Part shown: piece by piece, positions 4,481 through 53,591 of the stretch
Layout of the letters: every line of letters starts with the position of its first letter
Numbering within the stretch: the stretch's first letter is position 1
NCBI GenBank assembly: GCA_022821495.1
Contig: JAJEDN010000044.1
Span: 47,353-111,352, forward strand
Direction of reading: 5' to 3'
Length of the DNA: 64,000 nt
DNA from: Candidatus Poribacteria bacterium
Lineage (GTDB): Bacteria > Poribacteria > WGA-4E > WGA-3G
Program-made: the position numbers and the translations under genes
The notes under the pieces: model-generated
Seen by the model: only the letters and a program-made list of their open reading frames with translations
Told to the model about the DNA's origin: nothing
Database searches by the model: none

Positions 4481-5251
4481 TTATTCTGCTTTACCGTTTA
4501 TCTTTTCGAGGAATGGACTGAGCAGATCTATTGGGATTGGGAAGACAACGGTTGAGTTTTTCTCTGCACTCACTTCCACCAGTGCCTGTAGGAATCGGAG
4601 TTGCACGGCTGTCGGCGTTTTGCTGAGAATATCTGCGGCATCCGTTAACACTTGGGCAGACTCAAATTCACCTTCGGCGTGTGTGACCTTCGCGCGGCGT
4701 TCCCGTTCTGCTTCCGCCTGTTTTGCCATTGCACGTTGCATCTCGACAGGGAGATCCACATCCTTGATCTCCATCGCCAGTACCTCGACACCCCAAGGTT
4801 CACAGTGTTTTTTGACGATTTCCTCTAAATCCTGATTCAGTTTCTCGCGCTCAGAGAGTAAGTCGTCGAGTTCAGCTCGTCCGAGGACACTTCGGAGTGT
4901 CGTCTGCGCGATTTGACCAATCGCGAAGCCGAAGTCTTCAACTTCAATAACAGCCTTATCGGCTTCGGTGACTCTGAAATTAAGCACGGCGTTGACGCTC
5001 ACGGAAACGTTATCTTTTGTGATGACATCTTGGGGGGTAACATCATTGACAACGAGACGTAGGCTGACCCGTTGCATTCGTTCGATCCAGAAGGGTATCA
5101 TAAATACGAGTCCGGGACCACGGGTGCCTGTCAATCGACCGAGACGGAAGATGACGGCGCGCTCGTATTCTTTGAGGATCCGGACGCTTGTCGCAAGTAG
5201 AATGATAACGATAACAGTAATAGTAAAATAGATCGGGTCAATTTGTGGCAT
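4481..5251 (-). CDS. Slipin/stomatin-like SPFH (band 7) membrane protein
   Basis: [51 protein letters not shown]...[31 protein letters not shown] is diagnostic of slipins. The ORF track start at 5326 extends into a dispersed repeat; ATG at 5251 ([15 protein letters not shown]) is preferred. Confidence 0.92.
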
Positions 5252-5260
5252 ATTTTTATA

Positions 5261-5340
5261 TTTCCTTGCGGTTCGTTCAGGTGGGTTTGGAGGTTTGACG
5301 CTTCTATGCGTAAATCCGCCTTCCATTACATTACAGGCTA
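5261..5340 (-). repeat. Dispersed 'EPQGK' repeat, copy next to the slipin start codon
   Basis: Minus strand: TAGCCTGTAATGTAATGGAAGGCGGATTTACGC...CACCTGAACGAACCGCAAGGAAATATAAAAAT-ATG; aligns with copies at 5377, 9005, 40601 and 40704. Confidence 0.75.
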
Positions 5341-5376
5341 CTTGCCTGAGGCTATGAAAATAAACACCTTTTTAAC

Positions 5377-5460
5377 TTTCCTTGCGGTTCGTTCAGATAG
5401 GTTTGAATGTTGACGCACTTCTCCGTATATGCGCCTTCCACTTCCTTCCAGGCTCGGTTT
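5377..5460 (-). repeat. Dispersed 'EPQGK' repeat, tandem partner copy
   Basis: Minus strand: GAGCCTGGAAGGAAGTGGAAGGCGCATATACGGAGAAG...TATCTGAACGAACCGCAAGGAAAGTTAAAAAGG; offset 116 nt from the 5261 copy. Confidence 0.78.
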
Positions 5461-6520: not shown

Positions 6521-6622
6521 GACTTACGCAAATTTAGCACGCGATGGTAGATTTTTTACTTTTAAACCCCCTAAATCCCCCTTATCAGGGGGACTTTAAG
6601 AGGAAGTACGTAAATCCTAATT
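6521..6622. repeat. REP-like element of the CCCCCTAAATCCCCCTTATCAGGGGGACTT family
   Basis: Core aaccccctaaatcccccttatcagggggacttt, flanked by aggacttacgcaaa / agtacgtaaatcct; same core at 19.9 and 51.0 kb. Confidence 0.8.
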
Positions 6623-6634
6623 AAGGAAATGTAT

Positions 6635-9600
6635 TTACTGCGTTTTCTGCGAAAGTGCTTTAAAATACCGTCGCAGCTGCTCCCGATACTGGAACGGGAT
6701 GTCCTCCAGTTCTTTTGCGTGAGGTGCTGTTTCTAATTTCCGAACGATTTCAAGAAGTTCAGGATGCAGCGGTGGGACCTCCTGGGCAGGTGTTTCCGGC
6801 CTCTTTGCGACTTCAGCCTTGCGTTGTTTACCGACATCCCGTTTCTGCAACGACTTCAGACTATCAAGCATCCGCGTTAAAATTTGTTCCTGTCTATTGA
6901 GCACCTGATCACTGAGGTCACCGCGCTGGAGTGCCTTCTCAACCTCAGTCATATCCTCAGAGACCCCTTCAAGGCTTCCTAACATCTGTGCCATCTGTTC
7001 CGCGCGTTCAGCAAGGCGTTCGGTCGCTTCCCGAATCAGCTGCTGTTGTGCGGCGAGTTGACGCATCATCTGTTCAAAGCCCGGTGTTTGTCCCTGTTCT
7101 CGCATCTGTTGGCTCAGGTTTTGCGCCATCTGGTTTAATTGCTCCTGACTCTCGGCAAGTTGCTGGAGTTGCTCCAACATATTTTCCAATCCGCTGGCAC
7201 CCATTTGCTGGTTCATCTGTGCCATTGCATCCAGAAGTTCAAAGATCGCCTGATTGAGATCCGCAAGCGCAGTCCTCTGAATGGGGACAGCGAGACTCGG
7301 TTGTCTATCCTCTAAGGCACGTGCGGCACGAGAAAGTGCGTCGTTTGAGGCGTTGAGATGCCAAACAACTTTGTTCGGGACCTCTATCTGCCGGTTTCCT
7401 AACTCCCAAAGCCTATTGGAAAGTTGGGTGATCCCTTCTGCGGTGCTCAGTTCACCCGCTGCGAGTTGTTGTAATTGCAAGATTTCACTCGGGATATAAG
7501 CCTCAGCCTGCCCAGCAATAATAAGCGCATTTGTCTTATCAAGGACTTCTTCATGGAGATGGGAGAGATGAAGTCCGCTCTCAACGGCTTCTTGCATAGC
7601 CGTCATCGTTTCGTTTGCGTTCGCGCCTTCCATGAATGCCAAAGCGTTATCCAACCCCTGTGCGAGTTCTGTGAGCGTCTGTTCGGCTTCACGTCCGGAT
7701 TCAAGTGCCTCTGTGTTTTGCCCGCTGCGGAGATTCTCACTGGTCGTTGCGAGATCCTCAGGCAGCTGATGATCTTTCGTAAACTGATTGAGGCGTTTGA
7801 TTTCATCGGCGAGTCGTTCTATTTGCGGCGGCGCGTTTTCCTTATTTTTTGCGAGTTCGCCCATATCAGCACCGAGGTTATCCAATTTTTCACTGAGCTT
7901 CCCGAATTCCTCACCGACGCTATCCTCCTTTTCTGCGAGATCCGTTGTCGGGGAGGACTCTGGTAAGGTTTCCAAAGTATCCATGAGCTGCTTCTGTTGT
8001 TCAGCGAGTGCTTTCGCCTGTTTCGCCGCCGCTTCGAGTTCCTGTTGGAGGAGAATCTGCTCATAAAGCGACTTGGCGCGCTCCAGTTGCTGTAAAAACT
8101 GCTCTTGGCTGAGGTTCGCCTCCGTCATCGATCTTGCTTGATCGTTCATCTGTTGTTTCGCCAACGCCTCAGACAACTTCTGCAAAATCTCTTTATGTTC
8201 TTCAGAGAGCGCCTGCTCCATCAGATTTTGGAGTTCCTGATATTTTTGTATTGTCTCAGTGTCAAAGAGCTGGTTCTGTTCCATCTCTTCGGCAGTCTGC
8301 TTCATATCTTCGACCAGTTGCTTCGCTGTCTGCTCAATCTGCTTCTGATTCTCAAGCACCTGTTGCATCAAGTTCTCATCGTTAAGGGTGAGTTCTTGGC
8401 TCTTTCTGATTTTACCGAGGAGGGTATCAATCAAACCCGTTGCGTCCGCTTGCTCATCAACGAGTTCTTCAAGACCCTGTTGTTCTGTCTCCTGTTCGGT
8501 AGCGACAGAATCGTATAATTCGGAGAGCGATGGAAAGCGGAGCGTATAAGTCGGGGATTTACCGATATTCGGTCCTGAGACATTATCGTTATCCAGTGCC
8601 TGGACGTAATAAGCGAGCGTCTCACCCGGAAAGATACCGATCGGATCCACATCCCATGTGTATGATACAGAGACCGACCTACGGGCGGGTGCGTTCAGGA
8701 CATCCCACCGTTTCAATGGAATATTCATCTCTTCGGCTCCCTCCGCCTCAACACGATATACCAGTTGGAGTTCTTGTATACCGTAGTCGTCCGCAGCCTC
8801 CACCTCCAGTTCAACTAACATTGCATTATCCAAAACAGTATCCCGTGCGGGTGAAACAATATTGACATCAGGCGCGGCATCTCTGAAAACGGTGAGAGTA
8901 TACTTAATAGGATCGCGATTTGTAAAACCTTCAACATCGGTGATGTGGATATGATAATTTCCACTCTGTTGCGCTACAAAAGAGCCACGCATTGCGCGAG
9001 GTTCTTTTATTTTTCCTTGCGGTTCGGTTAAGTGTATTGATGGTGCTTGCGTTCTATTCCGTATATCCGCTTTCGACTTCGTTTCAAGCTGCTTTGGTTG
9101 CGGTTCAGTTAGGTGTCGCGCTGTGATCTCTAATGCGACAGCATCGGATCCTTCAAACGCGAGATGCGCTTTCTCAAGTGGTTTGTTACTTTCGCCAGTA
9201 AATGCGAGTTCTGTTCCGAAGAGTACTTGGATATCGCCAGTGTTTGCTGGCAGCGTCTGAGGTTGCAGTTGCGTGTAAACGGGGTAACGAAACCGATACT
9301 GAAATTGCGTAACAACCGGTTCATCGTTAATTGTTACTTGATACTGCGCTGAGGCTGACGCTTTAACATTTATATAGTATTGGAGCGGACGGTTCACATT
9401 TTTAAGGGTTACGTGGTAAGACGGATCAGGTTCTGGCACCTGTAGGTCGCTTGCGCGCTGCATAGGCATCGGCTGCCACGCTAATGTTGAGGCATCTTCA
9501 TTTCCGTCTCCGACGCGGTAATAGAGCGTAACAGGCGCGCTGAGGTGTCCGGTTACCTTTGCGGTGACGTTAACATCAGTGCCGCGTTCAATTTGAACAC

Positions 9601-10276
9601 TACCGGGTTGAATATCCGTAATCTGGATAGCGTGTTTTAAACCGTCCTGACCCTTCGGTAGTGTCTGTGGTAAAGTCTGAAAGGCGGTCGCTAAACCGGT
9701 AAAGGCGTTAGGAAAAAGAAAAAGAGTGATGAGCAGTAGCCCTATTCCTGCGACAGCAATACCGGCATTCCGCTTAATTTTCCGAAATTCGGTCTGAAAC
9801 ACCCGTCTGTGTTGGACATTTTTCATCTCTTCTTCGGTTTGAATAATCAGGTGTTCGATAAATTCGGGTGCGTAACCGAGTCGGTTATCGGTCAAGTTTT
9901 TCCAAAGCTGCACGGCACTCAGAATCCGGTTTTCGGATGCGAGCTTGGTTTCAGCTTGTGTTGATTCGAGGCGCGATGCGATTGCAGCATCTGTAAACCG
10001 ACGACGGAGCGGTAAAATAAGTGTTCGGATTAGGGTATAGATGCCGATGGCTACCGATAACAAGAGTATCCCGACACGGATCCAGAGCAAGAAAGGCGAC
10101 TGCCACGCTTGGATATTAATGGCTAAAATGATAAGGGTGCCTACTGTGACGAGTGCGAGAATCCCGATGCACTTTAGGAGACCTTCAGAAAAAGTGAGCC
10201 ACCACCACTGCCGCCGAATTGTCTGCAATCGAGCGATTAAGTTTTCATAAGCCTTATTTACATTTTGTGTGTCCAT
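6635..10276 (-). CDS. DUF4175-type large membrane protein with long Gln-rich coiled-coil region
   Basis: Two or three N-terminal TM segments, an extracellular-type repeat region and a very long coiled-coil (EQLQQLAESQEQLNQMAQNLSQQMREQGQTPGFEQMMRQLAAQQ); sits next to DUF4159 and VWA genes as DUF4175 proteins usually do. Confidence 0.82.
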   Translation of the reverse strand: MDTQNVNKAYENLIARLQTIRRQWWWLTFSEGLLKCIGILALVTVGTLIILAINIQAWQSPFLLWIRVGILLLSVAIGIYTLIRTLILPLRRRFTDAAIASRLESTQAETKLASENRILSAVQLWKNLTDNRLGYAPEFIEHLIIQTEEEMKNVQHRRVFQTEFRKIKRNAGIAVAGIGLLLITLFLFPNAFTGLATAFQTLPQTLPKGQDGLKHAIQITDIQPGSVQIERGTDVNVTAKVTGHLSAPVTLYYRVGDGNEDASTLAWQPMPMQRASDLQVPEPDPSYHVTLKNVNRPLQYYINVKASASAQYQVTINDEPVVTQFQYRFRYPVYTQLQPQTLPANTGDIQVLFGTELAFTGESNKPLEKAHLAFEGSDAVALEITARHLTEPQPKQLETKSKADIRNRTQAPSIHLTEPQGKIKEPRAMRGSFVAQQSGNYHIHITDVEGFTNRDPIKYTLTVFRDAAPDVNIVSPARDTVLDNAMLVELEVEAADDYGIQELQLVYRVEAEGAEEMNIPLKRWDVLNAPARRSVSVSYTWDVDPIGIFPGETLAYYVQALDNDNVSGPNIGKSPTYTLRFPSLSELYDSVATEQETEQQGLEELVDEQADATGLIDTLLGKIRKSQELTLNDENLMQQVLENQKQIEQTAKQLVEDMKQTAEEMEQNQLFDTETIQKYQELQNLMEQALSEEHKEILQKLSEALAKQQMNDQARSMTEANLSQEQFLQQLERAKSLYEQILLQQELEAAAKQAKALAEQQKQLMDTLETLPESSPTTDLAEKEDSVGEEFGKLSEKLDNLGADMGELAKNKENAPPQIERLADEIKRLNQFTKDHQLPEDLATTSENLRSGQNTEALESGREAEQTLTELAQGLDNALAFMEGANANETMTAMQEAVESGLHLSHLHEEVLDKTNALIIAGQAEAYIPSEILQLQQLAAGELSTAEGITQLSNRLWELGNRQIEVPNKVVWHLNASNDALSRAARALEDRQPSLAVPIQRTALADLNQAIFELLDAMAQMNQQMGASGLENMLEQLQQLAESQEQLNQMAQNLSQQMREQGQTPGFEQMMRQLAAQQQLIREATERLAERAEQMAQMLGSLEGVSEDMTEVEKALQRGDLSDQVLNRQEQILTRMLDSLKSLQKRDVGKQRKAEVAKRPETPAQEVPPLHPELLEIVRKLETAPHAKELEDIPFQYREQLRRYFKALSQKTQ
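9005..9117 (-). repeat. Dispersed 'EPQGK' repeat inserted in frame inside the DUF4175 gene
   Basis: Minus strand gCAGCTTGAAACGAAGTCGAAAGCGGATATACGGAATAGAACGCAAGCACCATCAATACACTTAACCGAACCGCAAGGAAAAATAAAAG, preceded by a partial copy (CACCTAACTGAACCGCAACC); translated as HLTEPQPKQLETKSKADIRNRTQAPSIHLTEPQGKIK. Confidence 0.85.
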
Positions 10277-19838: not shown

Positions 19839-19883
19839 ACGCGTTTTCTCCAGTCTTTATTACAGCACACCTCATAAATAATT

Positions 19884-20010
19884 TGCGAGTTTTGCCAAAT
19901 ATGAAAGAAACCCCCTAAATCCCCCTTATCTGGGGGACTTGCAATGTCTTGCGAGTTTTGCCAAATATGAAAGAAACCCCCTAAATCCCCCTTATCTGGG
20001 GGACTTGCAC
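19884..20010. repeat. Tandem pair (66-bp unit) of the CCCCCTAAATCCCCCTTATC(T/A)GGGGGACTT REP-like repeat
   Basis: tgcgagttttgccaaatatgaaagaaaccccctaaatcccccttatctgggggacttgca occurs at 19884 and again at 19950. Confidence 0.92.
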
Positions 20011-40548: not shown

Positions 40549-40600
40549 CAGTCAGCAAAGAGACACACGGTATATTATACCTCTCTTTTCAGAAGCACAC

Positions 40601-40682
40601 GCAGCTTGAAACGAAGTGGAAAGCAGATATACGGAGAGGAACACGAACACCCCAAAACCCGCTAACCGAACCGCATATTATA
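40601..40682 (+). repeat. Dispersed 'EPQGK' repeat, first tandem copy
   Basis: gcagcttgaaacgaagtggaaagcagatatacggagaggaacacgaacaccccaaaacccgctaaccgaaccgca. Confidence 0.88.
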
Positions 40683-40703
40683 ACTCGCTTTTCAAAAATA
40701 CAT

Positions 40704-40793
40704 GCAGCTTGAAACGAAGTGGAAAGCGGATATACGGAAAGGAACACGAACACCTCAAACCCAGCCAACCGAACCGCAAGGAAATTTAAAAGA
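40704..40793 (+). repeat. Dispersed 'EPQGK' repeat, second tandem copy abutting a start codon
   Basis: gcagcttgaaacgaagtggaaagcggatatacggaaaggaacacgaacacctcaaacccagccaaccgaaccgcaaggaaatttaaaag, then aATG; 103-nt offset from the first copy. Confidence 0.9.
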
Positions 40794-41786
40794 ATGAAAA
40801 GACGAACGTTCATAAAACTGAGTGCGATTAGTGCCGCAGGAATGGTTTTACCGCTCCAACTCGAAGCACAAACAGAAGTAAAATCGTTGCTGAAGCCAAG
40901 GACTTTTGTGACCCCTAACGCCGATTTCTATATTTTACAGATTGGCGACCCTAAAGTGCTCGACGCGGCAACGTGGCGGATGGGAATCACCGGTTTAATC
41001 GAGAACCGGATACCGCCCCTCCGGCTTGAAGATATTGTTGCAATGGAGTCTGTCGAAGCGACGCGTACCCTGAAATGTATCGGGGACCCGATTGGCACGG
41101 AGCAGATGAGCAATGCACACTGGAAAGGCATTCGACTTCGTGATCTGCTTGAGCAAGTTGGTCCCAAACCCGAAGTGAAAGTCGTTGTATTCCGTTGTGC
41201 AGACCGTTACCATACAGCGATTCCGCTGGAAGACGCGATGCGTGAAGATACGCTTCTCGCCTACGAGATGAACGGTGTTCCGCTCCCGACTGCGCACGGC
41301 TTCCCCATCCGACTGCTGAATCCCGGTCACTACGGCACGAAAAACCCGAAATGGATCGTGAACATCCACTTGGCAAAAGCACATGAAAGTTATTGGGAGA
41401 AACGGGGTTGGGATCCAATTGCGAATGTGAAACTCGGTACAATGATTGGAACTCCGAGTGAGGGTGAGGAAATCATTGGTGGCAAGGTTTATACGGTAAG
41501 TGGTGCGGCTTTTGATGCGGGACACCACGGTGGTATCAAGAAGGTAGAAGTCAGCATCGATTACGGGCAAACATGGCAAGAGGCAGAAATATGGGCGAAG
41601 GATACGCCACTTGCATGGGTGCTCTGGAAATGGGATTGGCAGGTACCAGAAGAAGCAAATCCGGTCGAAATTTATGCGAGAGCCACTGCGAATAGCGGTA
41701 TCACACAAGACGAAATCGGTCTTGAAGTGGAACCGGTTAGTGCGATACCTTATCACATGATTGATGCAGCAATTGTAATGCCATAA
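40794..41786 (+). CDS. Sulfite oxidase-like molybdopterin-dependent oxidoreductase, probable Tat substrate
   Basis: MKRRTFIKLSAISAAGM (Tat-like), ATRTLKCIGDPIGTEQMSNAHWKGIRLRDLLEQVG, LLAYEMNGVPLPTAHGFPIRLLNPGHYGTKNPKWIVNI. The ORF track start at 40719 lies in the repeat. Confidence 0.92.
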   Translation: MKRRTFIKLSAISAAGMVLPLQLEAQTEVKSLLKPRTFVTPNADFYILQIGDPKVLDAATWRMGITGLIENRIPPLRLEDIVAMESVEATRTLKCIGDPIGTEQMSNAHWKGIRLRDLLEQVGPKPEVKVVVFRCADRYHTAIPLEDAMREDTLLAYEMNGVPLPTAHGFPIRLLNPGHYGTKNPKWIVNIHLAKAHESYWEKRGWDPIANVKLGTMIGTPSEGEEIIGGKVYTVSGAAFDAGHHGGIKKVEVSIDYGQTWQEAEIWAKDTPLAWVLWKWDWQVPEEANPVEIYARATANSGITQDEIGLEVEPVSAIPYHMIDAAIVMP

Positions 41787-50967: not shown

Positions 50968-51069
50968 GCTCAAATCCGAACCCCCCTAACCCCCCTTATC
51001 AGGGGGGAACTTGGAATGTTGGCTCAAGTTCCAACCCCCCTAACCCCCCTTATCAGGGAACTTGGAATT
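50968..51069. repeat. Tandem pair (54-bp unit) of the CCCCCCTAACCCCCCTTATCAGGGG REP-like repeat
   Basis: gctcaaatccgaacccccctaaccccccttatcaggggggaacttggaatgttg then gctcaagttccaacccccctaaccccccttatcagggaacttgga. Confidence 0.9.
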
Positions 51070-51081
51070 CACTATAAGTGT

Positions 51082-52320
51082 TTACGTATGGCGAATTGCG
51101 TCAATGGGTGTCATTTTGGCGGCTTGGCTAGCGGGGTAGTAACCGAAGAAGATGCCTACGGCTGCGCCCGCACCGACGGAGATTAACACGGCTTCCGGTG
51201 TAATCACAGCGGGCCAGGACAATTCTTCAAAGAATCTGCTCACTATCCAAGCAAAACCGCTCCCAGCCACAGCACCTAACGTGATACCGAGTAGGCTCCC
51301 GATCAGACATAACAACACAGATTCCGTCAGAAACTGGATACGGATGTCAAGGCTTTTGGCACCGACGGCTTTTCGGAGTCCGATCTCCGGTATCCGTTCT
51401 GTTACGGAAACGAGCATAATGTTCAGAATCCCGATACCGGCGACAATCAAGGAGACGGATGCGATGACAACCAAAACAGACTCAATAATAAAAATCATTC
51501 GCTTTCCGCTTTCAATTCCCTTCTTTGCGTTCCATGTCCTGAAAAAAGTGTCGTCGCCGCCGTGGTTGCGCATGATAACGGTTTTAACTTCCTTGAGAGC
51601 CTGATCAACGACATCAATGCTTTTGGCACGCGCCATAACAGCACCGACGCGGTTGCGTCCACCGAAACGGGTTTGTGCGGTTGTGATCGGGACGAAAATC
51701 ATATTGTCATCGCTTCTGCCGCGTTCTAATCCGTCGCCGCGGCTCTCCATGATGCCGATAATGGTAAAACGTCTGTTGTTGATACCGACCTCTTTACCAA
51801 TCGGATTCTGCCCTTTAAACTGTTCTTTCCAGACTTTGGCACCGATCACACAGACTTTATTCCAGAAATCCATATCGGTATCGGCGAGAAATCTACCGTA
51901 TTCCGTTTGCCATCTACGGACGGCTTGGTATTCGTTAGTTGTTGCGCGCATGTAGGTTTGGCGATGCTTTCCTTCGACTTCAAAATTGATGAAATGACTT
52001 CTTTCGACAGTAGCCACCTCAACAGAAGGACAATCCGTCAGAATATCGTGCAAATCTCGCATCTCAAGGAAATGGGGGCTGGTATTGCGCTGCCAGCGGT
52101 TGTTTTTTCGGATATATCCGGGTCGATAAACGCCGAACATGCTGGGACCACCGATATTCTCGAATTCTGCCATCATAAGTTTTTCGGCACCCGCGCCAAA
52201 AGACATCATCGCGATGACCCCGGCAATACCGATGGTAATGCCTAAAAGCGTGAGAACCGTGCGGAGTTTACTCCCGCGAAGGATAGAAAACGCTGAGATA
52301 AGATTCTCCAACACGTGCAT
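51082..52320 (-). CDS. ABC transporter permease (MacB/FtsX type)
   Basis: ENLISAFSILRGSKLRTVLTLLGITIGIAGVIAMMSFGAGAEK...GIGILNIMLVSVTERIPEIGLRKAVGAK...FFGYYPASQAAKMTPIDAIRHT. Confidence 0.95.
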   Translation of the reverse strand: MHVLENLISAFSILRGSKLRTVLTLLGITIGIAGVIAMMSFGAGAEKLMMAEFENIGGPSMFGVYRPGYIRKNNRWQRNTSPHFLEMRDLHDILTDCPSVEVATVERSHFINFEVEGKHRQTYMRATTNEYQAVRRWQTEYGRFLADTDMDFWNKVCVIGAKVWKEQFKGQNPIGKEVGINNRRFTIIGIMESRGDGLERGRSDDNMIFVPITTAQTRFGGRNRVGAVMARAKSIDVVDQALKEVKTVIMRNHGGDDTFFRTWNAKKGIESGKRMIFIIESVLVVIASVSLIVAGIGILNIMLVSVTERIPEIGLRKAVGAKSLDIRIQFLTESVLLCLIGSLLGITLGAVAGSGFAWIVSRFFEELSWPAVITPEAVLISVGAGAAVGIFFGYYPASQAAKMTPIDAIRHT

Positions 52321-52340
52321 GCTTAGCTTCCTTATGACTT

Positions 52341-53591
52341 TTATGTATGACGGATGGCATCAATGGGTGTCAATTTGGCGGCTTGACTGGCGGGATAATA
52401 GCCGAAGAAGATACCTACGGCTGCACCGGCAGCGACAGAAATGAGTATGGCTTCCGGGGTAATCACTGAGGGCCATGACAGTTCATCTAAAAACCTTCCG
52501 ACTATCCAAGCAAAGCCTTTTCCAGCGATCGCACCGAAAGCGATACCGAGCAGGCTGCCCATCAGACATAAAAGGACGGATTCTGTGAGGAACTGCATTC
52601 GGATGTTAAAACTCTTTGCACCAACGGCTTTTCGGAGCCCGATTTCTGGTATTCGCTCTGTCACAGACACGAGCATAATGTTCAGAATCCCGATACCGGC
52701 AACAATCAAGGAGACAGACGCAATGACGACCAACACAGTCTCTATGATGAGGATCATTCTTTTCGCATTTGCGATACCCTGTTTTGCCGACCATGTTCGG
52801 AAAAAGGTATCGTCACCTCCATGATTGCGCATAATAATGGTCTTCACCTCTTTGAGTGCCTGGTCGACGTGAAACGGACTTTTTGCACGCACCATGATAT
52901 GCCCAACGTGATCGTGTCCCCAGAACCGTTTTTGTGCGGTTGTAATCGGAATGAAAAGCATATTGTCATCACTTTTTCCACGTTCTAACCCGTCACCTCG
53001 GCTCTCCATAACCCCGATAACAGTAAAACGTTTGTTGTTCCCGAAGTTATTGATGACGACTTCCTTACCGATGGGATCCTGTCCTTTAAACTGCTCTTTC
53101 CAGATTTTTGAACCGATGACACAGACTTTCGTCCATGCGTCCATATCGGTATCGGCGAGGAATCTACCATATTCCGTCTGCCATTCACGAACGGCTTGGT
53201 ATTCGTTGGTTGTTGCGCGAAGATAGGTGGGTTGGAATTTTCCGTCAATACCGAGATTGATATAGTAGCTACCTTCGACAGTAGCAACTTCAACGGAGGG
53301 GCATTCCGCGAGGACATCGCGGAGGTCTTCCATTTCAAGGTGATGTGGGCTGGTGTTGCGTTGCCAGCGTCCATTTTTTCGGATATGCCCGGGTCGGTAA
53401 ACGCCGAACATACTCGGGCCGCCGATCTTCTCAAATTCTGCCATAATCAGTTTTTCGGCACCTGCCCCAAAGGACATCATCGCAATGATACCCGCAATCC
53501 CAATGGTAATGCCTAAAAGCGTGAGAATTGTGCGCATTTTGCTGGCGCGAAGGACGGAAAATGCTGAGATAAGATTTTCGAGAAGTTTCAT
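52341..53591 (-). CDS. ABC transporter permease (MacB/FtsX type), tandem paralog of 51082
   Basis: Near-identical blocks to the 51082 protein over the full length; start set to MKLLENLISAFSVLRASK rather than the track's 53624. Confidence 0.95.
   Translation of the reverse strand: MKLLENLISAFSVLRASKMRTILTLLGITIGIAGIIAMMSFGAGAEKLIMAEFEKIGGPSMFGVYRPGHIRKNGRWQRNTSPHHLEMEDLRDVLAECPSVEVATVEGSYYINLGIDGKFQPTYLRATTNEYQAVREWQTEYGRFLADTDMDAWTKVCVIGSKIWKEQFKGQDPIGKEVVINNFGNNKRFTVIGVMESRGDGLERGKSDDNMLFIPITTAQKRFWGHDHVGHIMVRAKSPFHVDQALKEVKTIIMRNHGGDDTFFRTWSAKQGIANAKRMILIIETVLVVIASVSLIVAGIGILNIMLVSVTERIPEIGLRKAVGAKSFNIRMQFLTESVLLCLMGSLLGIAFGAIAGKGFAWIVGRFLDELSWPSVITPEAILISVAAGAAVGIFFGYYPASQAAKLTPIDAIRHT

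Follow-up and report, generated by a model that had tools for sequence, protein, structure and literature searches.

The closest published analogues of the repeat family described here are the SAS and ESAS repeats of actinobacteriophages and the TAACTGA repeats of Beggiatoaceae. SAS and ESAS were described in cluster K mycobacteriophages and cluster EF Microbacterium phages, where the 13-bp SAS is found almost always in one orientation, at the ribosome-binding position a few nucleotides from the start codons of unrelated genes, and is practically missing from both mycobacterial host chromosomes examined (PMC3203893, PMC7302621). In cluster K, 17-bp imperfect inverted repeats are located just upstream of many SAS, and the authors saw little support for an mRNA hairpin (PMC3203893, PMC7302621). 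The TAACTGA direct repeats are found in marine Beggiatoaceae and in some Cyanobacteria and Bacteroidetes, with about 170 sites in one bacterial chromosome that are mostly located just upstream of start codons, few being in ORFs; the genes concerned have no common function, and a translational role was proposed (PMC4679880). They consist of tandem heptamers, canonical ribosome-binding sites are rare nearby, and the forward repeats contain stops in all frames (PMC4679880). Rickettsia palindromic elements (RPEs) are palindromic sequences of about 100-150 bp, nearly half of them reported inside ORFs and each encoding a conserved peptide ORF (PMC10969869).

Here we analysed a dispersed repeat found in a 64,000-nucleotide stretch of Candidatus Poribacteria DNA, hereafter named the window (G000:C3:47353-111352, G000 being the label of the window's own genome, which comprises 5.37 Mb in 133 contigs). 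Poribacteria of this genus are sponge symbionts. The repeat is not mentioned in two papers on Poribacteria genomes, from one literature collection, that were searched for repeats. Comparison of its copies points, with a probability that we put at roughly 0.6, to a genus-specific, dispersed and structured 5' leader of about 97 nt, which would carry a ribosome-binding site and be common to host and phage genes. Start-codon-associated repeats were already known, without a mechanism, from a few phages and giant sulfur bacteria; the family described here is large and has a covarying hairpin, its spacing is the same in host and phage copies, and captures in frame as well as gains and losses can be seen between species of one genus.

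Like SAS and ESAS, this leader element occurs in one orientation and occupies the ribosome-binding position next to numerous start codons, and like the TAACTGA repeats it mostly precedes the start codons of unrelated genes, with few copies in ORFs. It differs from SAS in its length of about 97 nt, its host copies (at least 148) in addition to phage copies, its covariation-backed hairpin and its occasional copies inside ORFs. The SAS/ESAS sequence (GGGATAGGAGCCC / GGGAAAGGACCCC) differs from that of the leader element, no sequence relation to SAS was found, and the element is not confined to phages. The TAACTGA repeats, unlike the leader element, have no unit combining a hairpin with a Shine-Dalgarno sequence. 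The element resembles RPEs in being dispersed and found in frame inside unrelated ORFs; unlike them, it lies in ORFs at 3% of its sites, shows no frame conservation, and is palindromic only in a 21-nt hairpin and a weak 3-bp long-range helix. REP sequences are short dispersed hairpins, often with GTAG just before them. In contrast to a REP/RAYT system, the leader element lies mostly outside its hairpin, carries a Shine-Dalgarno sequence, occupies a start-codon position and flanks none of the Y1 genes in the assembled genome. Elsewhere in the genome, GGTAGGTTCGGTTTCCGAACCGAACC hairpins lie on both sides of a Y1 transposase gene (L034, G000:C75:1988-5269), forming a likely REP/RAYT pair unrelated to the leader element.

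Structure of the proposed leader element

Read from its 5' end, the leader element comprises GTA and the hairpin GYYY-GNA-AY-GNA-RU-GGA-RRRC, followed by GGATNTACGG, about 30 nt of variable sequence and a strongly conserved 3' block (CCTNACCGAACCGCAAGGAAANNTNAAAA); its built-in Shine-Dalgarno sequence is AAGGAAA. Among 26 copies, compensatory changes were found in five of the six hairpin pairs. The hairpin also stood out against controls, with a covariation score of 0.417 versus 0.227 for shuffled and at most 0.185 for slid controls. The four top covarying column pairs across 364 copies were all hairpin pairs. A weaker long-range helix of 3 bp, pairing ACGG with CCG, is modestly supported, and the palindromic portion of the element is limited to the hairpin, about 21 bases. 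In a hairpin subtype represented by 23 copies, Watson-Crick pairs replace much of the non-standard internal loop, and at some orthologous sites other 5' modules substitute for the hairpin. We also observed that GTTTTTGCTTGGGTGTTTCTTCAG repeatedly replaces GCGGAT right after the hairpin, at different loci and in different species (L078:2900-3090, L165, L066, L154 and L223). No family model of Rfam 15 matches the leader element, and a known structured RNA family was rejected.

Distribution of the repeat family

An earlier note on this DNA had taken the repeat for a dispersed one, and further copies were indeed detected in the window's own genome, far beyond chance: BLASTN returned 48 matches (E<=1e-3) and a covariance model at least 148 (E<=7e-6). 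With the covariance model, the element was detected in each of the 38 genus genomes, the copy counts often being lower bounds; few copies were found in two of them, G080 (1) and G084 (9). Elsewhere in the order, matches were only weak or isolated: the nearest genus gave weak ones (13 and 9), and the rest of the family a few. The exact 3' motif is present in 37 of the 38 genus genomes and in none of the 47 other genomes of the phylum. A single strong copy (E 8.9e-22) was observed in G018, from another family of the order, whose genome otherwise lacks the element; it reflects either a transfer or a misbinned contig. Named genomes matching a pattern of the 3' motif were Candidatus Poribacteria records, apart from one Acetobacteraceae match (L215). 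The latter was rejected as a family member, because it contains the short 3' motif with no element around it and is thus a chance match. Within the genus, a tandem array of the element with a period of 111 bp was found in G081 (G081:C1:4577259-4578243), with at least seven copies among the matches listed.

Position relative to start codons

The census covered 100 stretches around copies in the genome and yielded 157 copies, which were condensed to 130 sites for position counts. Start codons were inferred from ORFs. An ATG opening an ORF of 100 aa or more was found at the 3' end of 85 of the 157 copies in the sense orientation, 61 of them at the identical offset, compared with one of 157 in the antisense orientation and 4.9% of random positions. 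When counted by site, 87 of 130 were start-adjacent, with their end a few bases from a start codon and mostly with the same spacing behind the Shine-Dalgarno sequence, 25 were within 60 nt, 4 were inside ORFs and 14 were neither, leaving about 11% of sites without a nearby start codon. These counts bear out the description, in the earlier note, of a dispersed element occurring in both coding and non-coding DNA. The note had also placed copies upstream of genes; this is correct as to position, but a leader with a Shine-Dalgarno sequence at a fixed distance from the start codon had not been recognised.

We compared these sites with ordinary genes in an unbiased sample consisting of 387 kb of one relative and the window. 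AAGGAAA occurred seven times in the 256 upstream regions of genes without the leader element, and these genes use other Shine-Dalgarno forms. Since the AAGGAAA tail is rare before ordinary genes, it belongs to the leader element, and a generic Shine-Dalgarno context mistaken for a repeat was ruled out. The genes located behind leader copies are functionally unrelated: they encode, among others, a glycosyltransferase, histidine biosynthesis functions, the carbamoyl-phosphate synthase small chain, an SPFH protein, a sulfatase, Sua5 and oxidoreductases.

The copies found in the window are given in Table 1. Copy number upstream of the SPFH gene varies between species. For the pair at 40.6 kb, the reading proposed in the earlier note, in which both copies are read through as protein, holds on paper, where the frame is open; as the second copy directly precedes a start codon of its own, this read-through is not expected to be translated.

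Table 1. Leader-element copies and associated features in the window (window positions)
Feature	Position	Strand	Basis
SPFH/Band 7 gene downstream of the 5.3 kb copies	4481..5251	-	
Leader copy ending at the ATG (5251) of the SPFH/Band 7 gene	5248..5345	-	
Tandem second copy upstream of the SPFH gene	5364..5460	-	
DUF4175-family ORF, 1213 aa, uninterrupted, carrying the insert	6635..10276	-	ORF and Pfam match
Full leader-element copy within the DUF4175 ORF	8999..9096	-	Covariance-model match, 92 bits
Insert, residues 388-424, 37 aa (HLTEPQPKQLETKSKADIRNRTQAPSIHLTEPQGKIK)	9005..9115	-	Ortholog alignments; missing from most orthologs
Shine-Dalgarno-like AAGGAA of the DUF4175 copy, here an in-frame part of QGK	9013..9018	-	
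Covarying hairpin of the DUF4175 copy, GCTT-GAA-AC-GAA-GT-CGA-AAGC	9069..9089	-	
Motif CACCTAACTGAACCGCAA on the 5' side of the insert, like the leader element's own 3' motif	9098..9115	-	Sequence, ortholog alignment
First of two tandem copies at 40.6 kb	40597..40694	+	
Second tandem copy at 40.6 kb, Shine-Dalgarno at usual spacing before ATG 40794	40700..40797	+	

Turnover, constraint and phage copies

In the unbiased sample of the relative, the element was present at the corresponding site for two of seven comparable copies and missing for five. Apparently empty sites that still hold the element's 3' tail were not counted as virgin sites, since they may be deletions. At a given site, array copy number varies from species to species. 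Filled sites often have the 3' block at each end, compared with a single block in the relative. Comparisons of filled and empty sites revealed this duplicated 3' motif, with no clean target-site duplication and no terminal inverted repeat, and no mobilising enzyme for the leader element was found.

Sequence change was evaluated at 21 independent orthologous loci. It amounted to 2.7% at the hairpin-invariant positions and 3.8% in TATACG, compared with 20% in the middle and 29% in the variable tail, so that, from one orthologous copy to another, the rate at conserved positions was 5-10 times lower than at variable ones. A pattern covering the 3' block had served to find many of the non-window copies in these pairs, so that the evidence for constraint is limited to positions outside this pattern; the 3' block also looks conserved and was omitted from the argument, having been partly used to find the loci. 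These rates fit a leader element that is constrained where it is located; module exchange between copies could imitate such constraint.

The element is also present in two IMG/VR contigs of tailed phages, encoding terminase, tape measure, tail completion and head proteins. The parts of these contigs that were read contain nine copies, all nine with an ATG or GTG at the same offset. Both contigs were selected for containing the repeat and are not a measure of its density in phages generally. The shared leader element suggests Poribacteria as the hosts of both phages.

Copies captured in coding sequence

The starting observation, a repeat inserted in frame and in coding orientation in the DUF4175 gene, was confirmed: the ORF is uninterrupted over 1213 aa and matches Pfam DUF4175 (PF13779) at residues 308-583 with an E value of 1e-9. 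The repeat was also delimited at 9003-9092 (- strand) of the window, and the added segment, put at about 38 residues in the earlier note, proved to be 37 residues long. Of the 38 genomes of the genus, 37 yielded a DUF4175 ortholog, counting the window's own, as did all 18 genomes of the sister genus. The loop segment is wholly missing from all 12 sister-genus orthologs that were aligned and most members of the genus have another loop sequence; the insert is therefore lineage-specific. Neither of the two outcomes named in the earlier note as refuting its reading, an ancestral segment in distant orthologs or a lack of further copies, was observed.

This loop is hypervariable within the genus. 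Only the window genome (G000) and G082 have a full copy; G060 carries a shortened form of the insert (HLTEPQQKHLEAQTPPTHLTEPQGKLEK), G049 a lone 3' motif (HLTEPQGKLEK), and the remaining orthologs have other loop sequences. In the protein tree, G082 clusters with species lacking the insert, and G000, G060 and G049 are joined by G063 and G071, neither of which has it. As the G000 and G082 copies are similar over their full length, two insertions appear less likely than either one insertion with later losses or an interspecies transfer. The segment HLxETxxQ, found in several related loops, resembles the 3' motif of the leader element (HLTEPQ) and may be its point of entry into DUF4175. A copy would have entered the hypervariable loop, where relatives have an HLxExxPQ-like segment similar to the 3' block, kept the frame and been tolerated; its translation is predicted. 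The DUF4175 copy is a by-product of the spread of the leader family. In four orthologs from other species (L303, L305, L308 and L309), the same loop contains a different repeat-like insert (GATGGAAGAATGGAAGG...CTTCCAGCCTTCC), suggesting that it tolerates insertions.

Copies inside ORFs were also found in a beta-propeller protein (two copies, of which the ortholog L234 has one), in a penicillin-binding protein, between the transpeptidase and C-terminal domains, and in a UvrA-UvrA linker. The latter belongs to a UvrA-UvrA fusion ORF of 1955 aa (L107:38-5902), with the copy in the linker between the UvrA halves. In several further genes, no start codon follows the element, which is read into the N-terminus: a homocysteine S-methyltransferase, an RraA-like protein, a pyrroline-5-carboxylate reductase and a PLP enzyme that looks like trpB. 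The peptide MEGGYTERNVKPxxxLTEPQGKIK recurs in fusions. An open sense frame was found in 29 of 88 leader copies, versus 63 of 156 expected (shuffled mean, all copies). No frame is specially kept, a conserved encoded peptide was rejected on this count, and coding use of the element thus looks like a by-product.

Possible explanations for the leader family

We propose that the transcribed leader would aid or regulate translation initiation of whichever gene follows. Its copy number would change, and the element perhaps spread, by recombination between the conserved 3' blocks, as suggested by the filled sites, which often bear the block twice, against once in the relative. Phages might carry the element between strains, and copies would occasionally be captured as coding sequence. 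In a broader reading, which we advance tentatively and hold to fall somewhat short of even odds, the leader would be a mobile translation-initiation module that moves among unrelated bacterial genes and between bacterium and phages, takes over initiation regions and sometimes becomes protein-coding. With this family, the modular spread of ribosome-binding leaders becomes testable, as does the way in which such a module becomes protein sequence.

The main rival, which we find rather unlikely, is a tolerated selfish element: a non-autonomous, MITE- or REP-like sequence inserting widely, whose position and orientation would reflect selection against harm rather than any function. Copies would survive mainly where their own Shine-Dalgarno sequence replaces that of the gene, or where the frame stays open. 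Species-specific presence, tandem arrays, unrelated target genes, copies in phages and the in-frame and N-terminal fusions are all in line with such an element, the hairpin with its 5' GTAG is like that of REP sequences, and Y1 transposases occur in the genome. However, none of the five Y1 genes in the assembled part of the genome is flanked by the leader element, and a Y1/IS200-type mobiliser was rejected on this count. Terminal inverted repeats and clear target duplications were not seen either, the conserved positions are held between orthologous copies while their neighbours change freely, and spacing is exact in all phage copies read.

It is improbable, in our view, that the element is bound by a single global host regulator acting post-transcriptionally and is conserved for that control. 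The many similarly structured leaders that overlap the ribosome-binding site speak for such a regulon, and three ANGGA-like motifs pointed to CsrA. The genes served nevertheless share no theme, occupancy varies between close species, and there is no Rfam family. The CsrA gene was not found in the genome by a search whose control was positive; this rules out CsrA targets and bears on CsrA, not on other RNA-binding proteins. We give least credence, and very little of it, to a mobile element like RPEs, selected for coding compatibility, which was the main idea of the earlier note. The in-frame copies in DUF4175, the beta-propeller protein (two) and the UvrA-UvrA and penicillin-binding-protein linkers speak for it, as does the recurrent fusion peptide. 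The likeness fails on the 4 of 130 sites inside ORFs, on the frames, open in 29 of 88 leader copies where shuffles of all copies gave a mean of 63 of 156, and on the palindromic portion, which covers about 21 bases and not the full length.

Other repeats in the window

A second dispersed repeat, AAACCCCCTAAATCCCCCTTATCAGGGGGACTT, palindromic and MITE-like, was observed at window positions 6554-6590, 19883-20009 and 50968-51058, and also at L124 and L156; it sometimes adjoins the leader element. At 51081-53345, the window contains two diverged direct repeats (76-79%) of at least 300 bp with a spacing of about 1.26 kb, which are probably tandem paralogous genes.
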